Below, piece after piece: positions 18,671-29,811 of a stretch of DNA of 36,543 bases. Both the position numbers and the translations under genes were made by a program. This stretch comes from Syntrophomonadaceae bacterium (GTDB lineage: Bacteria > Bacillota > Dethiobacteria > DTU022 > PWGO01), in contig PWGO01000103.1 in assembly GCA_003554525.1 (NCBI GenBank), positions 1-36,543 on the forward strand, given 5' to 3'. The notes below the pieces were generated by a model. That model saw only the letters and a list, made by a program, of their open reading frames with translations, searched no databases and was not told the origin of the DNA. Each line of letters starts with the position of its first letter. The first letter of the stretch is position 1.

Positions 18671-18717
18671 TTATTCTTTTCTTGTATCTTTCTTTTTATC
18701 TCTTGTTTCTTGAATGG
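18671..18717 (-). repeat. Repeat-like sequence forming the alaS 3' end
   Basis: On the minus strand CCATTCAAGA, then CAAGA and TAAAAAGA occur in the same order as at 3224-3250. It encodes the last 15 residues of AlaS. Confidence 0.45.
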
Positions 18718-21343
18718 CACCACTTTTCTGCCGTTGTACTATATGCTCTACTTCGTCAAGGGCTGCTCTTAAACCTTCCGGATTTTTACCACCCGCCTGG
18801 GCCATTTCGGGGCGACCTCCACCACCCCCGCCTACTTTACCGGATATCTCTTTTACCAGGTTTCCCGCATGAATGCCTTCATTTAATATATCGCGAGTCG
18901 CAGCAGCAATAATCATTACTTTTCCATCTTTAACTGCTCCCAGCACAACTACTGAACGGTTTGTTCTCTCTTTAACACGGTCGGCAAGTTCCCGCAGGGC
19001 TTCCATATTTTCCGCTTTCACTTCAGCGCTTATTATATTTACATCACCGTTCCGGTTTATCTTGTTTAAAAGGTTGTCTGCCTGGTATTCCGCAATCTTG
19101 CTCCTCATCTCCCTGTACTTCTCTTCAAGTTCGCGGTAATCCTCTAACCATTCCTCGACTTTTTCCCTTAATCCCTGCGGGGAGGATTTAAATGCTTCCG
19201 CAGTTTCCTTAAGTATAAGCTCCTGCTCCCGCACATGCTTCCAGGCTTCTTCGCCGGTTAAAGCTTCTACCCTGCGAATTCCGGCTCCTACCCCTTCTTC
19301 TCCAGTAAATTTAAAAAAACCAATCCTGCCGGTAGAGTCAAGGTGAGTTCCACCACATAGCTCCAGGCTGTATTCACCGGTTTTCAACATCCTTACCTGT
19401 TCCCCGTATGTACCTTCAAAAAGAGCCAGAGCACCCATTTCTCTTGCTTCATCCAGTGAAACATGATTTACTTCCACCTGCAGGTTCTGCCGCACCAGTT
19501 CGTTTATTGTTTTTTCCAGGTGCTCCAGGTCTTCTCTGGATAGAGAACTGAAGTGAGTAAAATCAAACCTCAGTCGATCTGGAGCTACCAGGGAACCTGA
19601 CTGGTTAACATGTTCTCCTATATAATTTTTAAGGGCCCGGTGCAGCAGGTGCGTGGCCGTATGGCTGCGACAAATAGCCTGTCTCCTTTCCCCGTCAACC
19701 CGGGCCAAGGCCTCCTGGCCTTCTTTTACCGCACCTTCTTCAACGTTGCATTTTAGCACAATCTGCTCAAACTGGTTGTAGCAGGCATCCTTTACCCGTA
19801 GTACAAAATCATCTCCTTCAATATAACCTGTATCTCCAACCTGGCCGCCTGATTCGGCATAAAACGGGACCGGAGAAGCCAAAAGTTCTACTTCTTCTCC
19901 CTTTTTTGCTTCCCCCTTCCTGGTTCCTTCTGCGGTAACCACCAGTATACGGGTTTCGGCTTCCAGGTGATCGTATCCTACGAAGCTGGTTTCCAGCTCA
20001 CTACTTCCTTCCCAGGTTTCCCTGGAAAAACCGCCCGTGCTCTTTAACGCTTTCCTGGCTTTTTCCCTCTGCTCTTCAAGGTAACTTTGAAAAGTTTCTT
20101 CTTCAATTTCCATACCTTTCTCCGCGGCAATCTCCCTGGTTAAATCCAGCGGGAAGCCATATGTATCATAAAGGCGAAAAGCCATTTCCCCCGGGAATAT
20201 TGTTTCTCCCTTTTTATCCAGGTCCTGCAGGCTATCTTCGAGTATCCTGCATCCCTGATTAAGAGTTTCTTTAAACCGGTCTTCTTCTATTTTTATTATT
20301 TGAGTTATATAGTCGGCTCTCTGCTTGAGTTCCGGATAAGCATCCCCCATGGTTTCTATAATTACTGGAACCGCTTCATAAAGGAAAGATTCTTCAATTC
20401 CCAGCAGGCGCCCGTGACGCAGTGCCCGCCGCAACAACCTTCTTAAAATGTAGCCCCGCCCCTCGTTGGAAGGCAGGACTCCGTCAGCCACCAGAAAAGT
20501 TACGCCCCGCAGGTGCTCGGTAACAATTCGGAGGGATAAGCTGTCTTTGCCGGGTTTCCCTTGCCCCTTTTTTTCGGCAATTGAAGATAGTTCCTTAACC
20601 AGCGGAGCCACCGTGTCAATTTCGTATATGGAGCCCACGTTCTGCAAGGCCATGGCCAGCCTCTCCAGGCCAGCACCGGTATCTATATTTTTCCTTTCCA
20701 GCTCTTCCATTCTCCCGGAAGGAAGTAAATTATACTGGGTAAATACAAGGTTCCAGATCTCCAAAAAACGGTCGCAGTCGCAACCCACCTGACAGTCAGG
20801 CTTATCGCATCCAAACTCCGGGCCCAGGTCGTAATAAATTTCCGAACATGGTCCACAGGGGCCAACTCCTATTTCCCAAAAGTTGTCCTCCTTGCCCAGG
20901 CGCACAATTTTTTCATGGGGTACCCCAATTTTTTCTCTCCATATATTATAAGATTCTTCATCGTCTTTATATATACTTACCCACAGCCGGTCTAAAGAAA
21001 ATTTGTACCCTTTAGTTACCAGCTCCCAGGCCCACTTGATAGCTTCTTCTTTAAAGTAATCACCAAAAGAAAAATTTCCTAACATCTCAAAAAATGTTGC
21101 ATGCCTTCCCGTTTCTCCTACCCTTTCTATATCAGGAGTGCGCACGCATTTCTGGCATGTTGCCACCCTGGGATATGGAGGTTTTTTCTCCCCGGTAAAA
21201 TAGGGTTTTAGTGGAGCCATTCCCGCTCCAATCAAGAGCAGGGTAGGGTCATTTTGAGGAATTAATGAAAAACTTGGCAGCACCAGGTGATCTTTTTCAG
21301 TAAAAAACTCCAGGAATACTTTTCTAATTTCTCTACTATCCAT
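18671..21343 (-). CDS. alaS: Alanyl-tRNA synthetase
   Basis: An 890-residue class II synthetase: aminoacylation domain from the N-terminus, editing domain with HTATH near residue 560 and CGGTH near 662 (zinc-binding His/Cys), and the C-terminal DHHA1 domain with GGGGGGRPEMAQAGGK. The family normally ends a little after this; here about 15 further residues (IQETRDKKKDTRKE) are encoded by a stretch that resembles an intergenic repeat at 3224-3250. A consensus promoter is upstream and no T-box leader is visible. It heads the alaS-ireB-AKR-ruvX-DUF1292-mltG run. Confidence 0.97.
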   Translation of the reverse strand: MDSREIRKVFLEFFTEKDHLVLPSFSLIPQNDPTLLLIGAGMAPLKPYFTGEKKPPYPRVATCQKCVRTPDIERVGETGRHATFFEMLGNFSFGDYFKEEAIKWAWELVTKGYKFSLDRLWVSIYKDDEESYNIWREKIGVPHEKIVRLGKEDNFWEIGVGPCGPCSEIYYDLGPEFGCDKPDCQVGCDCDRFLEIWNLVFTQYNLLPSGRMEELERKNIDTGAGLERLAMALQNVGSIYEIDTVAPLVKELSSIAEKKGQGKPGKDSLSLRIVTEHLRGVTFLVADGVLPSNEGRGYILRRLLRRALRHGRLLGIEESFLYEAVPVIIETMGDAYPELKQRADYITQIIKIEEDRFKETLNQGCRILEDSLQDLDKKGETIFPGEMAFRLYDTYGFPLDLTREIAAEKGMEIEEETFQSYLEEQREKARKALKSTGGFSRETWEGSSELETSFVGYDHLEAETRILVVTAEGTRKGEAKKGEEVELLASPVPFYAESGGQVGDTGYIEGDDFVLRVKDACYNQFEQIVLKCNVEEGAVKEGQEALARVDGERRQAICRSHTATHLLHRALKNYIGEHVNQSGSLVAPDRLRFDFTHFSSLSREDLEHLEKTINELVRQNLQVEVNHVSLDEAREMGALALFEGTYGEQVRMLKTGEYSLELCGGTHLDSTGRIGFFKFTGEEGVGAGIRRVEALTGEEAWKHVREQELILKETAEAFKSSPQGLREKVEEWLEDYRELEEKYREMRSKIAEYQADNLLNKINRNGDVNIISAEVKAENMEALRELADRVKERTNRSVVVLGAVKDGKVMIIAAATRDILNEGIHAGNLVKEISGKVGGGGGGRPEMAQAGGKNPEGLRAALDEVEHIVQRQKSGAIQETRDKKKDTRKE

Positions 21344-23531: not shown

Positions 23532-24623
23532 CTACTTCATGACTTCAAGTATTGTGCCCCCACCCAGGACATTTTCTCCTTCGTAAAACACCGCGGATTG
23601 CCCTGGGGTAACCGCGGACCGCGGTTCCTGCAACTCTACCCGGGCCACTTTTTCTTTATCCGGTGGATAAAGCACGGCAGGAACTTCAGGTGAACGATAC
23701 CTGATGCGGGCCATTAATGAAACCGGTTCCCGGGGTTCTGGCATGCTCACGAAATTTAACTTGTTAACCGTAAAATTGCTGGCATATGTTTCCTCTCTGG
23801 TTCCCACTACCAGTGTATTGGTGTCAACTTCCATGTCTATTACATACATCGGCTTTTGGGTGGTTAACCCCAGCCCCCTGCGCTGCCCTATGGTATAAAA
23901 CGGGAGTCCACTGTGTTGGCCCAGTACCTTTCCCGCTTTATCTACAACAGGACCCGGCTTAATATTTTCATACTGCCTGGTTAAAAATTCACGGTAGCCC
24001 CCCTCTGGAATAAAACAAACCTCCTGGCTTTCTCCTTTTTGAGCCACCGGAAGCTTCAACCCGGCTGCTTTTTTGCGAACTTCTTCTTTCTGGAATTCTC
24101 CCAGCGGAAACAGGCTGTATGACAGCTGTTCCTGGGTAAGGTTGTATAACATATAGGACTGATCTTTTTGTACATCCAGCCCTTTTTTCATAAAATATCT
24201 CTTCCGGTTAATATCCCACCCCGAGCGAACATAATGGCCGGTAGCAAGATAACCCGCGCCTATGGCCAGCGCTTTTTCCAAAAACAGGCCGAACTTTATT
24301 TTTCGGTTGCATATTACACACGGATTAGGAGTGCGCCCCTGCAAATATTCTTCTACAAAATAATCTACTACTTCTTTTTTAAATTCATCCCTTAAATTAA
24401 GTACGTAGTGAGGTATGTCCAGCTGGTCAGCAATTTTCCTTGCATCGTTTACTGCTTCCAAAGAACAACAGCTCTTGCCGGGAACCATTTCTGCCTCCGG
24501 GTCAAACCACAGGCGCATGGTGAGCCCTATCACCTCATAACCTTTTTCCAGCAAAAACGCAGCTGTTAAAGAACTGTCAACTCCGCCACTCATGGCTACT
24601 GCTATACTTCTGGAGGAATCCAC
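23532..24623 (-). CDS. mnmA: tRNA-specific 2-thiouridylase MnmA
   Basis: A 363-residue enzyme that thiolates U34 of Lys, Glu and Gln tRNAs. The PP-loop SGGVDSS is at residues 12-18, the first catalytic Cys in NPCVICNRKIKFG near 100-112, the second in GESQEVCFI near 197, and GQRRGLGL follows. Length is typical. The GTG start (24623) is two bases after the stop of the IMPACT-family gene, with AGAGGTG lying within the end of that gene. The cysteine desulfurase that usually supplies sulphur is not in the window. Confidence 0.96.
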   Translation of the reverse strand: MDSSRSIAVAMSGGVDSSLTAAFLLEKGYEVIGLTMRLWFDPEAEMVPGKSCCSLEAVNDARKIADQLDIPHYVLNLRDEFKKEVVDYFVEEYLQGRTPNPCVICNRKIKFGLFLEKALAIGAGYLATGHYVRSGWDINRKRYFMKKGLDVQKDQSYMLYNLTQEQLSYSLFPLGEFQKEEVRKKAAGLKLPVAQKGESQEVCFIPEGGYREFLTRQYENIKPGPVVDKAGKVLGQHSGLPFYTIGQRRGLGLTTQKPMYVIDMEVDTNTLVVGTREETYASNFTVNKLNFVSMPEPREPVSLMARIRYRSPEVPAVLYPPDKEKVARVELQEPRSAVTPGQSAVFYEGENVLGGGTILEVMK

Positions 24624-24625
24624 TA

Positions 24626-25243
24626 TCAGTTCACCTCTTTTAAAACTCCGTGTCCACGAGTAATATCCCGCAGGGTTACCTCAAGATCTTTTGCCGCATC
24701 GGGACTTGTTTTAAAATAAACGAGAGCATTTTCATGATAATCTATTTCTATTATTTCCCCTCTGGCTTGAGAAATAAGTTTCATGACTTCCCCTAGATAC
24801 TGGTAAGGAGTTTCTACCCCGAATTTTAATTCCGGCTCTAAAGGTGTGGTGCAACAGGCCCGAACTGCTTCTTCAGTACACCGGCGATATGCCCGGATTA
24901 AACCACCAATACCCAGTTTTACTCCACCGAAATAGCGCACTGCAACTGCCAGGGTATTAACCAGACAAAAGCGGCGCAACACCTCTAAAACCGGCTTGCC
25001 GGCAGAACCCGCAGGTTCCCGGTCATCACTGCTCTTTTCTTTTATTTCTTTTCCCTGCAATAACCTGTAGGCGTAAACATGGTGATTGGCATCAGGATAT
25101 TCTTCTTTTAACAAAGACAGTTTTTCTTTAATTTCTTCTGCACTGCAAACCGGAATTATAATTAAATAAAACCGGCATGCACCTTCCGGTACGCGCACCC
25201 TGCTTTCTTCCGTTATGGTAAAATTAACGCCTTTTTCCTCCAT
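24626..25243 (-). CDS. IMPACT/YigZ family protein
   Basis: A 205-residue protein with the UPF0029 N-terminal block: FYLIIIPVCSAEEIKE, ANHHVYAYR, DDREPAGSAGKPVLE and VAVRYFGGVKLGIGGLIRAY. The C-terminal third is the DUF1949 domain. Eukaryotic IMPACT regulates GCN2; the bacterial role is not settled, with ribosome or translation links proposed. AAAGG precedes the ATG. It sits between rarA (55-base gap) and mnmA (2-base gap), so it is likely co-transcribed with both. Confidence 0.9.
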   Translation of the reverse strand: MEEKGVNFTITEESRVRVPEGACRFYLIIIPVCSAEEIKEKLSLLKEEYPDANHHVYAYRLLQGKEIKEKSSDDREPAGSAGKPVLEVLRRFCLVNTLAVAVRYFGGVKLGIGGLIRAYRRCTEEAVRACCTTPLEPELKFGVETPYQYLGEVMKLISQARGEIIEIDYHENALVYFKTSPDAAKDLEVTLRDITRGHGVLKEVN

Positions 25244-25298: not shown

Positions 25299-26645
25299 TT
25301 ATTTTTCCTCTTTATTTTTATACCTCTGCGGATGCAGCTTTTCCAGGCGCTGCTTGATTTTGCTTTCCACCCCTGTATCTTTGGGGCGGTAAAATACTTT
25401 ATCTGTAAGCTCCGGAGGAAGATACCTCTGCTTTACATATCCACCCCGGTAATCATGGGGGTACCGGTACCCCTTCCCGTGCCCCAACCTTTCAGCTCCC
25501 CGGTAACCTGTCCCTTTTAAGTGAGGCGGCACTTCACTTGAAGGATGAGCTTTTACTTCCTCTATTGCCTGGTTTATAGCCTGGTAAGAGGCGTTACTCT
25601 TGGGCGCAGAAGCAAGATAAGTAACCGCCTGGGACAACAGTATCTTCCCTTCCGGCATTCCTACCAGCTGCAATCCCTGGGCAACTGCATTGGCAATTTC
25701 TATAGCCCTTGGGTCGGCGTTTCCTATATCTTCGGAAGCACTAATAACCAGGCGCCTGGCTATAAACAGGGGATCTTCACCCCCCTGTATCATTCGGGCC
25801 AACCAGTATAAGGCCGCATCCGGGTCCGAGCCGCGGATGGATTTTATTAAAGCGGAAGCAATATCGTAGTGGGTATCCCCGTCACGGTCGTAATTAAATA
25901 CAAGGTGGGAAGCGGCCTCCCCTGCTATGTCGGCGGTTATCCGGCAACTTTCCCCTTCTTCCCGTGCACTGGCAGTTTGAACCGCCAGTTCCAGGGAATT
26001 AAGCCCCACCCTGGCATCTCCTCCCGCCCTGCTTGCCAGGAGTTCCAGCGCCTCTTCTTCAACTTCTACTTTCCAGTCCCCCAGGCCTCTTTCGGAATCC
26101 CGGAGGGCTTTCTGCATTAGTTCTTTTATATACCCCCGGTTAAGTGATTTAAAGGTAAAAATACGTAGTCTGGATAGCAACGGCGAAGTAAGGTGAAAAA
26201 AAGGGTTTTCGGTAGTAGCACCAATAAAAAGGAGTGTGCCTTCTTCCACCGCGGAAAGAAGGGCATCCTGCTGGGCCTTGTTAAACCGGTGGATTTCATC
26301 CAGGAAAAGGATGGTCCTTTTGCTTTCCCCGCCCCACCTTTTTTTTGCTTCGCTGATTACTTCACGCACTTCCTTTACTGTAGCCGATACCGCGTTTAGC
26401 TGCACAAAAGCCGCCCGGCTAAAAGAAGCGATGATGCCGGCCAGGGTAGTTTTACCCGTTCCCGGAGGGCCGTAAAACAATGAAGAAGGAAGCCTGTCTT
26501 CGGTGATGGACCGGTAAAGAGGTGCATCTTTACCTAATATCTCCTCCTGGCCCAAAAATTCTTCCAGGCTGCGCGGGCGCATGCGGACTGCCAGGGGGCC
26601 TTCCCGGTTAACTTTTTCCTGCCACTTATGAGTAAAAAGGTCCAC
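25299..26645 (-). CDS. rarA: Replication-associated recombination protein A (RarA/MgsA)
   Basis: A 448-residue AAA+ ATPase of the clamp-loader clade that acts at stalled forks. Walker [11 protein letters not shown] is near residue 60, Walker [16 protein letters not shown] near 112, sensor 1 ATTENP near 140, followed by the tetramerisation domain with [17 protein letters not shown] and GYRYPHDY near the end. The GTG start (26645) is only three bases after the stop of scfB, whose last codons contain the GGAGGA site, so the two are translationally linked. Confidence 0.96.
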
Positions 26646-26648
26646 AGG

Positions 26649-28007
26649 TTATTCCTCCTTCAGGCAGGCTTTTATATAAAGGGCGCACTCCAGGCGTTTC
26701 TGCTGCAGGGCGCATTCCAGGTTATACGGGATTTTCGGGTCGCCGTTAACCACCAGCGAAGCTGCACGACACCCTCCACCACAGTGGTAGCGCGCCCAAC
26801 AATTTCTGCAGGAATCCAGAGTGGGACCAACCGCCGGAAATTTCTCCTCGGGCAAAATATGTTTAACCCTTTCCGGGGCCAGGACATTTCCCATCACGTA
26901 TTCTTTCATACCCACCAGCTGGTGGCAAGGGTAAATATCCCCATCCGGAGTAACCGCCAGGTACTCACTTCCCGCCCCACACCCGGACAAGCGCTTAAAC
27001 AGGCAGGGGCCTTCTTCCAGGTCTATTTCAAAGTGAAAGAAAGTAAAAGGATCTCCTGCCCAACAGCATTCCAGGTAAAACTCGGCCAGCTTTCGGTACT
27101 GCCCGGCCAGCTCATCCAGGTCTTCCTCTTGCAGGGCCCAATCCTGGTGTGGTTCAGATACAACCGGTTCCAGGGATATATGACGAAAACCTTCCTGGTA
27201 AAGGTGATATACATCGTTAAAGAAATCCCGGTTAAACCTGGTATAAGTTCCTCTTACATAGTAGCTGCCTTCCCAGCTGTTAACAAAATTGCTCAGGCGT
27301 TTTATTACCCTGGGGTAGCTAAAAGATCCGTCAGGAAAAGTTCGCATACGGTTATGTACCTCCGGGCGGCCGTCCAGGCTCAATATCACGCTAAAATTTT
27401 CCCGGGCCAGGTATTCGCGCACTTCGTCATTTAATAACAGCCCGTTAGTGGTGAGGGTGAATCTGACCTCCGTTCCTTTTTCCTTCCCTTTTTCCCGTGC
27501 GTATTCCGTAATTTTTTTTACATTTTCCAGGTTGAGAAGCGGTTCTCCCCCAAAAAAATCAATTTCAACATGGCGTCGGCCTCCGGACTGTTCCAACAAA
27601 AAATCAACTGCAGATTTTCCCACCTGGTAAGACATTAGCGGTTTTCCGCCGCCGTATTCTCCTTTGCCGGCAAAACAATAACGGCAAGTCAGGTTACAGA
27701 TATGCGCCGCATTCAAGCATAAAGCTTTTACTACCGGTTCTGCAGGAGTGTTTTCCAGATGCGGCGGCGGACTCCAGAGATGCCCCGCAGATTTTAGTTC
27801 TTCAATTTCCTGCAATACTTCACCTATATCCTCCCGGGAATATTGGTCTGCAAGTAAGGAATATAACCTTTCCCGGGAATAACCCTGGTCCAGTAAATTA
27901 ATTACGTTCCAGGCCAGCCCGTCTACTACGTACAGGGAATCACTTTCTACATCAAAAACTATTTTTTTGTCTCCCATTTGAAACAGGTGCAGTTCGCCCT
28001 GCGACAA
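26649..28007 (-). CDS. scfB: SCIFF peptide radical SAM maturase
   Basis: A 452-residue radical SAM/SPASM enzyme that forms sulphur-to-carbon thioether crosslinks on the SCIFF peptide (ranthipeptide class). An N-terminal precursor-recognition (PqqD-like) domain spans about residues 1-85, then the radical SAM motif CNLTCRYC (Cys104, 108, 111), FFGGEPLLN, and a SPASM region with GCGAGSEYLAVTPDGDIYPC and CRNCWARYHCGGGC for two auxiliary clusters. The TTG start (28007) follows AGGAGGT. The peptide gene lies 134 bases upstream, confirming the assignment. rarA follows after three bases. Confidence 0.96.
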   Translation of the reverse strand: MSQGELHLFQMGDKKIVFDVESDSLYVVDGLAWNVINLLDQGYSRERLYSLLADQYSREDIGEVLQEIEELKSAGHLWSPPPHLENTPAEPVVKALCLNAAHICNLTCRYCFAGKGEYGGGKPLMSYQVGKSAVDFLLEQSGGRRHVEIDFFGGEPLLNLENVKKITEYAREKGKEKGTEVRFTLTTNGLLLNDEVREYLARENFSVILSLDGRPEVHNRMRTFPDGSFSYPRVIKRLSNFVNSWEGSYYVRGTYTRFNRDFFNDVYHLYQEGFRHISLEPVVSEPHQDWALQEEDLDELAGQYRKLAEFYLECCWAGDPFTFFHFEIDLEEGPCLFKRLSGCGAGSEYLAVTPDGDIYPCHQLVGMKEYVMGNVLAPERVKHILPEEKFPAVGPTLDSCRNCWARYHCGGGCRAASLVVNGDPKIPYNLECALQQKRLECALYIKACLKEE

Positions 28008-28068
28008 CGTACTACCTCCTTTTACAGGCCTGACAAAACATTGTATAATTTACACGGGCCTCCTGCAT

Positions 28069-28097
28069 AAAAAGGCCAGGTTTTAAATATAACCTGG
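28069..28097 (-). terminator. Terminator or attenuator between scfA and scfB
   Basis: On the minus strand CCAGGTT (28097-28091), an 8-base loop, AACCTGG (28082-28076), then CCTTTTT. A modest 7-base stem with a short U run. A further CCAGGTT copy lies upstream (28121-28115). It would let most transcripts end after the peptide gene with some readthrough into scfB. Confidence 0.6.
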
Positions 28098-28141
28098 TCC
28101 TCTGGAAATACTTTAACCTGGAGGCTAAATGTGTTTATGAT

Positions 28142-28288
28142 CTACTGGTTTTTCTTGCGCTCACAAACTTGATTGCCTACTGTGCATGAGGTTTTGCAAG
28201 CCGACTGACAAGAGGTGGCACATTCCCTGCATCCTTCTTCCCTGTGTGTTGAAATATTTTTCTGATTTACTGCTTTTATATGCTTCAC
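28142..28288 (-). CDS. scfA: SCIFF ranthipeptide precursor (six cysteines in forty-five)
   Basis: A 48-residue peptide starting at GTG (28288), three bases after GGAGGTATA. It begins MKHIKAVNQKNIS and has exactly six cysteines at 20, 23, 27, 31, 35 and 42, with the highly conserved core CQSACKTSCTVGNQ, ending in a basic tail ERKKNQ. This is the SCIFF family, substrate of ScfB, in which Cys side chains are linked to downstream residues. It has its own promoter and a terminator-like hairpin. SCIFF peptides are nearly universal in Clostridia and have been linked to quorum-type regulation in some species. The identification is very secure; its biological role here is not known. Confidence 0.96.
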   Translation of the reverse strand: MKHIKAVNQKNISTHREEGCRECATSCQSACKTSCTVGNQVCERKKNQ

Positions 28289-28339
28289 CTGTATACCTCC
28301 TAATTATAGTTGCTACTAACGATTTTAATTTCCTCAGTA

Positions 28340-28368
28340 ATTATAACAGATCTGCCTCAAGTGTGAAA
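28340..28368 (-). promoter_or_regulatory. Promoter of scfA
   Basis: On the minus strand TTTCAC (28368-28363), 17 bases, TATAAT (28345-28340), about 50 bases before the GTG start. The -10 is perfect, the -35 matches four of six consensus bases (TTGACA). Confidence 0.65.
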
Positions 28369-28476: not shown

Positions 28477-29121
28477 TTAAGGCAGTGCACCGCCGGGAAG
28501 CGAGCGAAAATCTTCTACTGCTTCTTCGGTTAAGGGACTGTGCAGCATGTCCCTTAAGACCCAATAAGGGGCGGTAAGGTAACTTGCCCCGGCAATATAA
28601 GCTCCAACTAACTCTTCCGGGGATTTAAGGCTTGCCGCCAGTATATTCCCCTTTCCCCCGGCCCGGATAACGCTCGATATTTCCTGTACCAGCTCCACCC
28701 CATCTTTTCCTCTGCGGGTGGAGCGGTTGACGTAAGGAGCTACGTAGTCAGCCCCGGCGTGGAATGCCGTCAGCGCCTGCGAAGAAGTAAAAACAGAGGT
28801 CATGCAAACCGGTACACCCGCTTTGCTTAAAGATCCGATTAGATTGACACCGTTCCAGGTGCAGAGAACCTTGATCACCACCCTTTCCGGGGCTAATGAC
28901 CAGTAATGTACCGCCCAGCGGTACATATCTTTCTGCTCTCCTTCCGGAACCTGCAGCCATACCGGCAGGGTCATTTCCTTGATTAATTCTCCGGCAAACT
29001 GTGCAGGTTCTACCCCTGCATCATACATCAACCGGGGATTAGTAGTTATTCCGCTAATTATTCCCAGCACCAGTGCTTTTTCAATTTCATTCCTGTCCGC
29101 AGAATCCAGCAACAAAGGCAT
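28477..29121 (-). CDS. TalC/FSA-type transaldolase
   Basis: A 214-residue short transaldolase. MPLLLDSADR opens the barrel, GITTNP (residues 24-29) binds phosphate and substrate, VVIKV holds the Schiff-base lysine (Lys84), and TSVFTSSQAL and YVAPYVNR follow. Members are transaldolases or fructose-6-phosphate aldolases; sight cannot separate them. The start is placed at the ATG at 29121, since the GTG at 29133 overlaps the AAGGAG ribosome site. It stands apart from scfA by 188 bases and follows the CDF-like membrane gene. Confidence 0.9.
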   Translation of the reverse strand: MPLLLDSADRNEIEKALVLGIISGITTNPRLMYDAGVEPAQFAGELIKEMTLPVWLQVPEGEQKDMYRWAVHYWSLAPERVVIKVLCTWNGVNLIGSLSKAGVPVCMTSVFTSSQALTAFHAGADYVAPYVNRSTRRGKDGVELVQEISSVIRAGGKGNILAASLKSPEELVGAYIAGASYLTAPYWVLRDMLHSPLTEEAVEDFRSLPGGALP

Positions 29122-29175
29122 CTGTGTTTCCACTCCTTATCCGTTTATATTTTACATTTCAACATTGACCGAAAA

Positions 29176-29205: not shown

Positions 29206-29811
29206 TCAACCTGCCGAACTACCGGGCATTTCCCTGGCTGCAACACAGGATAAGCCTTCCATGCACATCTCCAGCGACAACCTCTTTATTTGTAAACATA
29301 TACCCAGGGCAACAATAACATCAAAAATGGCATGGCCGTAAAATCCTGCCGCAGCCGAGCTCAAAACTAAAAGAGCCGCTATAGCCTCGAAACCGAAAAA
29401 AGTATATATAACCCGGCCGGTAACGGAATTAGCGGATAACCCCCTGAACCTGAAATATAGCATCAAATAAATAGCCCCAAGAACCAGCGATACGTAAAAT
29501 ACGGAAACATTCGGCGCCGCCCTGGCAGCATCCCTCAACACGCTTACAAAATAAGTATTCATACAAAAGGCAGCAAAGAGATGGAAAAGTCCCACCGCCA
29601 CAAGGAAACAGCTGCAGGTATACCTGAAAAGGCCCCTTGAATTTAAAGGTAAAAATAAAAACGCAAACAGCATTAAAACTACGACAAAAGAGTGAACTGC
29701 AAAACCAAACAGCGCATAACTTTCCCCGACGGCTGCTAAATATAACTTGATCAAACCCAGCACAAAATATGTAAACAACACCAGGAGATATTCTTTTTTA
29801 GATTTCTCCAA
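29206..29811 (-). CDS. Six-helix membrane protein with cation-diffusion-facilitator-like layout
   Basis: A 201-residue hydrophobic protein with about six membrane helices. I do not recognise a named family with certainty. The first pair (LYLAAVGESYALFGFAVHS) and the last part (AAGFYGHAIFDVIVALGI then a basic amphipathic end) recall helices 1-2 and 5-6 of cation diffusion facilitators, but the paired metal-binding Asp/His residues are mostly missing and the cytoplasmic domain is absent. If related, it has lost transport chemistry or works differently. TTG start behind AGGGGTG. It precedes the transaldolase gene. Confidence 0.7.
   Translation of the reverse strand: MEKSKKEYLLVLFTYFVLGLIKLYLAAVGESYALFGFAVHSFVVVLMLFAFLFLPLNSRGLFRYTCSCFLVAVGLFHLFAAFCMNTYFVSVLRDAARAAPNVSVFYVSLVLGAIYLMLYFRFRGLSANSVTGRVIYTFFGFEAIAALLVLSSAAAGFYGHAIFDVIVALGICLQIKRLSLEMCMEGLSCVAAREMPGSSAG

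Follow-up and report, generated by a model that had tools for sequence, protein, structure and literature searches.

The 36,543-nucleotide stretch of DNA analysed here (the window) carries a standard SCIFF ranthipeptide locus which most probably heads an operon that is specific to the bacterium's class and runs into housekeeping genes, rarA being a passenger there by position. The precursor and maturase pair is a plain member of an already described family; what is new is the answer for rarA, whose adjacency to the maturase gene is kept in one class and missing from the other genomes and loci compared. The window's minus-strand genes are arranged as ruvC-ruvA-ruvB-o82-queA-tgt-yajC-DUF3792-o201-fsa-scfA-scfB-rarA-yigZ-mnmA-o79-ytvI-alaS-ireB, continuing to ruvX and mltG (Table 1).

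Table 1. Coordinates of the SCIFF locus, its signals and the genes behind it
Feature	Position	Strand	Description	Evidence
scfA promoter	28340-28367	-	TTCACA-16 nt-TATAAT, TG-extended	11/12 consensus match
scfA ribosome binding site	28295-28301	-	AGGAGGT	read directly
scfA	28142-28288	-	SCIFF precursor, 48 aa, GTG start, six Cys	TIGR03973, PF13165
Terminator-like hairpin and T run	28066-28097 (stem 28097-28076)	-	scfA-scfB spacer, putative attenuator	
scfB ribosome binding site	28014-28020	-	AGGAGGT	read directly
scfB	26649-28007	-	radical SAM/SPASM SCIFF maturase, 452 aa, TTG start	TIGR03974, 5wgg/5why
rarA ribosome binding site	26654-26660	-	AAGGAGG, inside scfB 3' end	read directly
rarA (mgsA)	25299-26645	-	AAA+ recombination factor, 448 aa, GTG start	PF12002, PF16193, PF00004
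yigZ/IMPACT family gene	24626-25243	-	behind rarA	PF01205, 110 bits
mnmA	23532-24623	-	tRNA 2-thiouridine synthase	NF001138, 445 bits (cut-off 284)

The SCIFF precursor and its maturase

A short, unannotated precursor gene with a maturase downstream had been proposed in a preliminary description of this DNA as a SCIFF pair, and the family models agree on both members. The scfA product scores 72.4 bits against TIGR03973 (cut-off 50) and 74.1 bits against PF13165, which excludes chance. Its cysteines, at positions 20, 23, 27, 31, 35 and 42, keep the conserved spacing within about 45 residues. An alignment of 126 precursors was assembled from the window, class loci and named loci, the latter being the best 80 of 574 confirmed matches; the six columns hold cysteine in 124 to 126 of these rows, exactly six cysteines are present in 112, and the core SCQSACKTSCTVGNQxC is nearly invariant. 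The scfA product of locus L122 (genome G048) has serine in place of one core cysteine, at the position of Cys35. No match to the precursor was found in the PDB, and in the window genome a single scfA and a single scfB score above the cut-offs. Small size and a GTG start, taken alone, would favour a chance open frame with no gene behind it. The TIGR03973 score stands 22 bits above its cut-off, promoter, ribosome site and maturase are all present in family order, and the SCQSACKTSCTVGNQ core is nearly invariant in the aligned precursors (named rows from the best 80 of 574), leaving this reading practically no probability; it was rejected, the family scores having already refuted it. That SCIFF genes are small and easy to overlook in annotation, as the preliminary description remarked, is already in print in a passage of PMC5300114.

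The maturase gene scfB lies 134 bp behind scfA, inside the 500 bp between precursor and TIGR03974 maturase that serve as a rule in PMC5300114. Its product reaches 532.2 bits against TIGR03974 (cut-off 425), stays below the cut-off of the not_ScfB exception model and contains PF04055 and PF13186. Cysteines 103, 107, 110, 342, 360, 399, 402, 408, 412 and 431 are invariant in 17 aligned rows, giving the radical SAM CxxxCxxC and the SPASM cysteines, which we take to be the motifs of such maturases. The protein aligns to PDB 5wgg/5why at 442 bits over residues 5-447, the alignment to 5wgg beginning at residue 5, in the N-terminal part where a leader-binding RRE would be expected; the match names just a radical SAM domain protein, which is presumably CteB. 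Compared with CteA/CteB of Clostridium thermocellum (PDB 5wgg/5why) and with Tte1186a/Tte1186, the window has the same precursor and maturase families in the same order and the same conserved six-cysteine core, whereas the leader residues differ and the maturase gene is followed by rarA. ScfB would bind the peptide's leader and, judged from its homology to CteB, is predicted to install a radical SAM thioether from Cys31 to a nearby threonine. In known SCIFFs, according to passages of two reviews, the thioether links Cys32 to Thr37 in vitro and Cys32 to Thr34 upon expression in E. coli (PMC8326336, PMC8172795); the counterparts of these residues in the window would be, by position, Cys31, Thr36 and Thr33.

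Gene order inside and outside the class

The rarA product has the AAA+ core, AAA_assoc_2 and MgsA_C domains (PF00004, PF16193 and PF12002) above cut-off, the last at 239 bits, as befits RarA/MgsA. Three bases separate the scfB stop from the rarA start and the rarA ribosome site, 8 nt ahead of the GTG, lies within scfB, both exactly as claimed before. Two genes between DUF3792 and scfA, a divergent transaldolase/fructose-6-phosphate aldolase-like gene (28477-29133, minus strand), which reaches 131.8 bits against TIGR00875 where the cut-off is 246, and an ORF of 201 aa that matches no family (29206-29811, minus strand), each have a tblastn match in only one of 188 loci, a piece of the window being among these loci.

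The class was sampled with 97 genomes, in which scfB (E 1e-80 or better) was found in 53, scfA in 50 of those 53, and PF12002 in 80. According to positions and gene maps, 43 of the 53 scfB genomes, window included, have rarA as the next gene after scfB. Among the ten exceptions, the contig of G048 ends inside scfB while another of its contigs opens with an scfB tail before rarA, the contig of G025 ends after scfB, and G024 has the pair elsewhere. In six genomes (G061, G076-G079 and G088) scfB is followed at once by yigZ or mnmA, with rarA missing at that place; the tenth is G055. In G055 (L128, 1-12600) the order is scfA-rarA-scfB-yigZ, and in G056 of the same genus scfA-scfB-rarA. The loci L148-L151 (G076-G079) and L158 (G088) have no rarA between scfB and mnmA or yigZ; the gene is found elsewhere in G076 and G078, and none was detected in G077, G079 and G088 despite 93-99% completeness.

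Where at least 1.5 kb of downstream sequence is available in the class, scfA is followed by scfB in 46 of 47 loci, scfB by rarA in 40 of 47, rarA by yigZ in 32 of 39 and yigZ by mnmA in 29 of 31, so that the scfB-rarA adjacency is not unusually well kept within its backbone. (The window is left out of the class counts for neighbours, promoters, strict hairpins and gene spacing, and all spacer counts use loci in which both genes are whole.) Over the 97 genomes, 48 have both scfB and rarA, 5 only scfB, 32 only rarA and 12 neither (p = 0.03), a weak link drawn from a table blurred by incomplete genomes; G086, counted as having only rarA, carries a piece of scfB at a contig edge, so that the table makes the two genes look a little more separate than they are. 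Family f2 has scfB in 5 of 43 genomes. Nineteen scf-less loci of this family were examined, of the 32 class genomes with rarA only, and rarA is directly preceded by yajC in 13, by DUF3792 in 5 and by a contig end in 1. These empty sites show that rarA keeps its place in genomes that lack the pair.

The adjacency disappears outside the class. No rarA at all lies within reach of scfB in any of 79 named loci (best 80 of 574; at least 1.5 kb downstream in 74, at least 8.5 kb in 52), L044 having been left out because its length and gene spacing are those of the contig of class genome G054. Nor was the adjacency found in any of 61 genomes among the matches listed, which are the overlap of two match lists of about 150 of 315 and about 150 of 371 genomes. 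The comparison across Clostridia that the preliminary description had put forward as a check thus answers in the negative for Clostridia at large, and the adjacency in related genomes holds within the class but nowhere beyond it in these two sets. In 4 of the 61 genomes among the matches listed, a rarA domain follows scfB on the same strand at a distance of 12.5 to 31.6 kb. Between scfB and rarA, the genes of G140 include secD, secF, relA, dtd, hisS and aspS, with an ABC1-kinase gene where recJ is expected; among the genes scanned, G222 has secD, secF, recJ and relA, and G323 has secD, relA and aspS. In the outgroup genome G265, where the distance is 12.5 kb, a GAPDH gene and not secDF is near scfB. 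In 41 of 77 loci (best 80 of 574) the gene directly after scfB is a member of the SecDF cluster, a count that omits L062, L085 and L107, which gave no scfB ORF, and includes L044; the sole in-class locus is not among the 41.

These arrangements can be set against a clostridial backbone ruvCAB-queA-tgt-yajC-DUF3792...secDF-recJ-apt-relA...hisS-aspS-rarA. Of this backbone the window carries the genes from ruvC to yajC on the upstream side, and rarA, mnmA and alaS on the downstream side, all in one direction, but in its class the part from secDF to aspS does not separate scfB from rarA. In G092, a closed genome of the class, secF and aspS are 9 kb apart and both about 325 kb from rarA. The simplest history, its direction read from gene order, would be a departure of the secDF-aspS block from between yajC and rarA in the ancestor of the class. 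The order in B. subtilis, presumably with secDF to aspS before rarA, fits such a departure. The displacement of the block, which separates scfB from rarA in some outgroups and is located elsewhere in the class, would have left scfB and rarA both in the yajC-mnmA backbone.

Promoter and hairpin of the probable operon

The peptide gene was described as having its own promoter, and comparison upholds this. In the window this site ranks first among seven matches in the stretch scanned, level with one on the opposite strand, and seven against 5.8 expected is not above chance as a count; its position and strength, however, recur. A sigma-A-type site, taken as at least 10/12 matching positions within 120 nt with the expectation derived from shuffles, is found ahead of scfA in 39 of 47 class loci (1.1 expected) and in 46 of 74 named loci (best 80 of 574; 2.5 expected). 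Family f6 has the form TTTACC-17-TATAAT with TG and family f5 the form TTGACG-17-TAGAAT (class loci, e.g., L143, L153 and L130). Such sites are rare before scfB (2 of 50 class loci, 1 of 78 named loci from the best 80 of 574). Within 120 nt, none precedes rarA in 47 class loci with scf, which include the separate rarA contigs of G024, G048, G076 and G078, or in 18 scf-less class loci, and none precedes yigZ in 38 class loci. The check for a separate strong rarA promoter has thereby been run, and extension to 500 nt gave 2 of 47 (a count without shuffles). A separate rarA promoter was therefore rejected, no sigma-A-type site being above chance in the 120 and 500 nt upstream. As a control, alaS has a site upstream in 22 of 22 class loci; among the upstream class genes, tgt has one in 12 of 22 and yajC in 0 of 24. 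The strong promoter-like site of alaS (18671-21343, minus strand) is also present in 14 of 14 f2 loci tested. In an Rfam scan for structured RNA, the window gave no family at gathering score, T-box included.

A hairpin with a T run in the scfA-scfB spacer had gone unmentioned in the preliminary description. It is modest in the window, with a 7-bp stem, but under strict conditions such structures are enriched in this spacer, in 10 of 47 class loci (1.4 expected) and 34 of 76 named loci (best 80 of 574; 2.3 expected). None was found in 44 scfB-rarA, 37 rarA-yigZ and 34 yigZ-mnmA class spacers; 4 of 22 yajC-DUF3792 spacers have one. A looser folding test, with expectations from single-base shuffles, gave 19 of 40 class (3.7 expected) and 39 of 74 named scfA-scfB spacers (best 80 of 574; 8.3 expected), 8 of 22 yajC-DUF3792 spacers, and 4 of 17 of the longer scfB-rarA spacers (0.3 expected); some lineages may terminate transcription before rarA. 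Leaky terminators follow precursor genes in other RiPP operons, and the window likewise has its putative attenuator between precursor and enzyme; no paper on a leaky terminator in SCIFF loci was found in the literature searched.

A joint scfA-scfB-rarA-yigZ-mnmA transcript is likely in the class, since scfA has a promoter, rarA has none and the order is kept in 43 of 53 genomes. Such comparison speaks for the joint transcript with rarA that had been suggested. RNA polymerase would start ahead of scfA, the hairpin and T run would probably terminate some of the transcripts, so that precursor is made in excess of maturase, and read-through would yield scfB, rarA, yigZ and mnmA.

The standing of rarA in the probable operon

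Could the hairpin instead be a full terminator, with scfB-rarA-yigZ-mnmA transcribed from a promoter of a type outside the consensus scan? The structure in the window and its enrichment in scfA-scfB spacers are compatible with this, but the 37 of 47 class spacers without a hairpin in the strict test, together with the rarity of sigma-A-type sites before scfB (in the class and in the best 80 of 574), make it unlikely.

A tie of another kind was claimed in the preliminary description, for which rarA was translationally coupled to the maturase gene. In a fuller form of this reading, ribosomes ending scfB would restart on rarA, making fork repair follow the synthesis of the peptide maturase, and the peptide or its regulation would have a role in replication stress. 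The geometry in the window permits translational coupling, the ribosome site being inside scfB, and the adjacency in most scfB genomes of the class and the lack of a rarA promoter in the sigma-A-type scan agree with it. Distances between scfB stop and rarA start, estimated by alignment to the window RarA with loci omitted where either gene is cut, are at most 15 nt in 19 of 44 class loci but range from -2 to 329 nt, and the spacing is tighter between rarA and yigZ (at most 15 nt in 31 of 36). Nearly all class rarA genes carry their own ribosome site, a strong one in the window, so that the translational tie is weakly supported. Against a functional one stand the absence of the adjacency outside the class (0 of 79 from the best 80 of 574 and 0 of 61 among the matches listed), the 32 class genomes having rarA without full scfB and the 5 with the reverse, when scfA accompanies scfB in nearly every case, and the six genomes in which yigZ or mnmA takes the place behind scfB. 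Because the adjacency is absent from the loci and genomes outside the class and each gene persists alone within it, a functional tie is not supported, and we hold the coupled reading to be distinctly unlikely; no evidence supports a peptide-repair function or a functional scfB-rarA link, and no paper treating rarA and SCIFF together was found in the open-licence literature.

We favour the passenger reading: absence elsewhere, empty sites and reciprocal losses are best explained by inherited position. The link of rarA to the SCIFF pair would then be a shared transcript, probably real in the class, inherited by position and separable both ways. Against this view, the adjacency has persisted across most of the class and G055 kept the three genes together through a rearrangement, which could hint at selection.

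Passages of reviews name quorum sensing as a role of SCIFFs, citing Chen et al. 2020 (PMC8326336, PMC8172795). It is doubtful, but conceivable, that in this class rarA, yigZ and mnmA are driven mainly by the SCIFF promoter, which may respond to cell density as is reported of other SCIFFs; if so, a peptide-signalling promoter would set fork repair and tRNA thiolation through attenuator read-through. The arrangement of a promoter before scfA, a hairpin after it and none before rarA provides a testable operon model for a peptide family of unsettled role.
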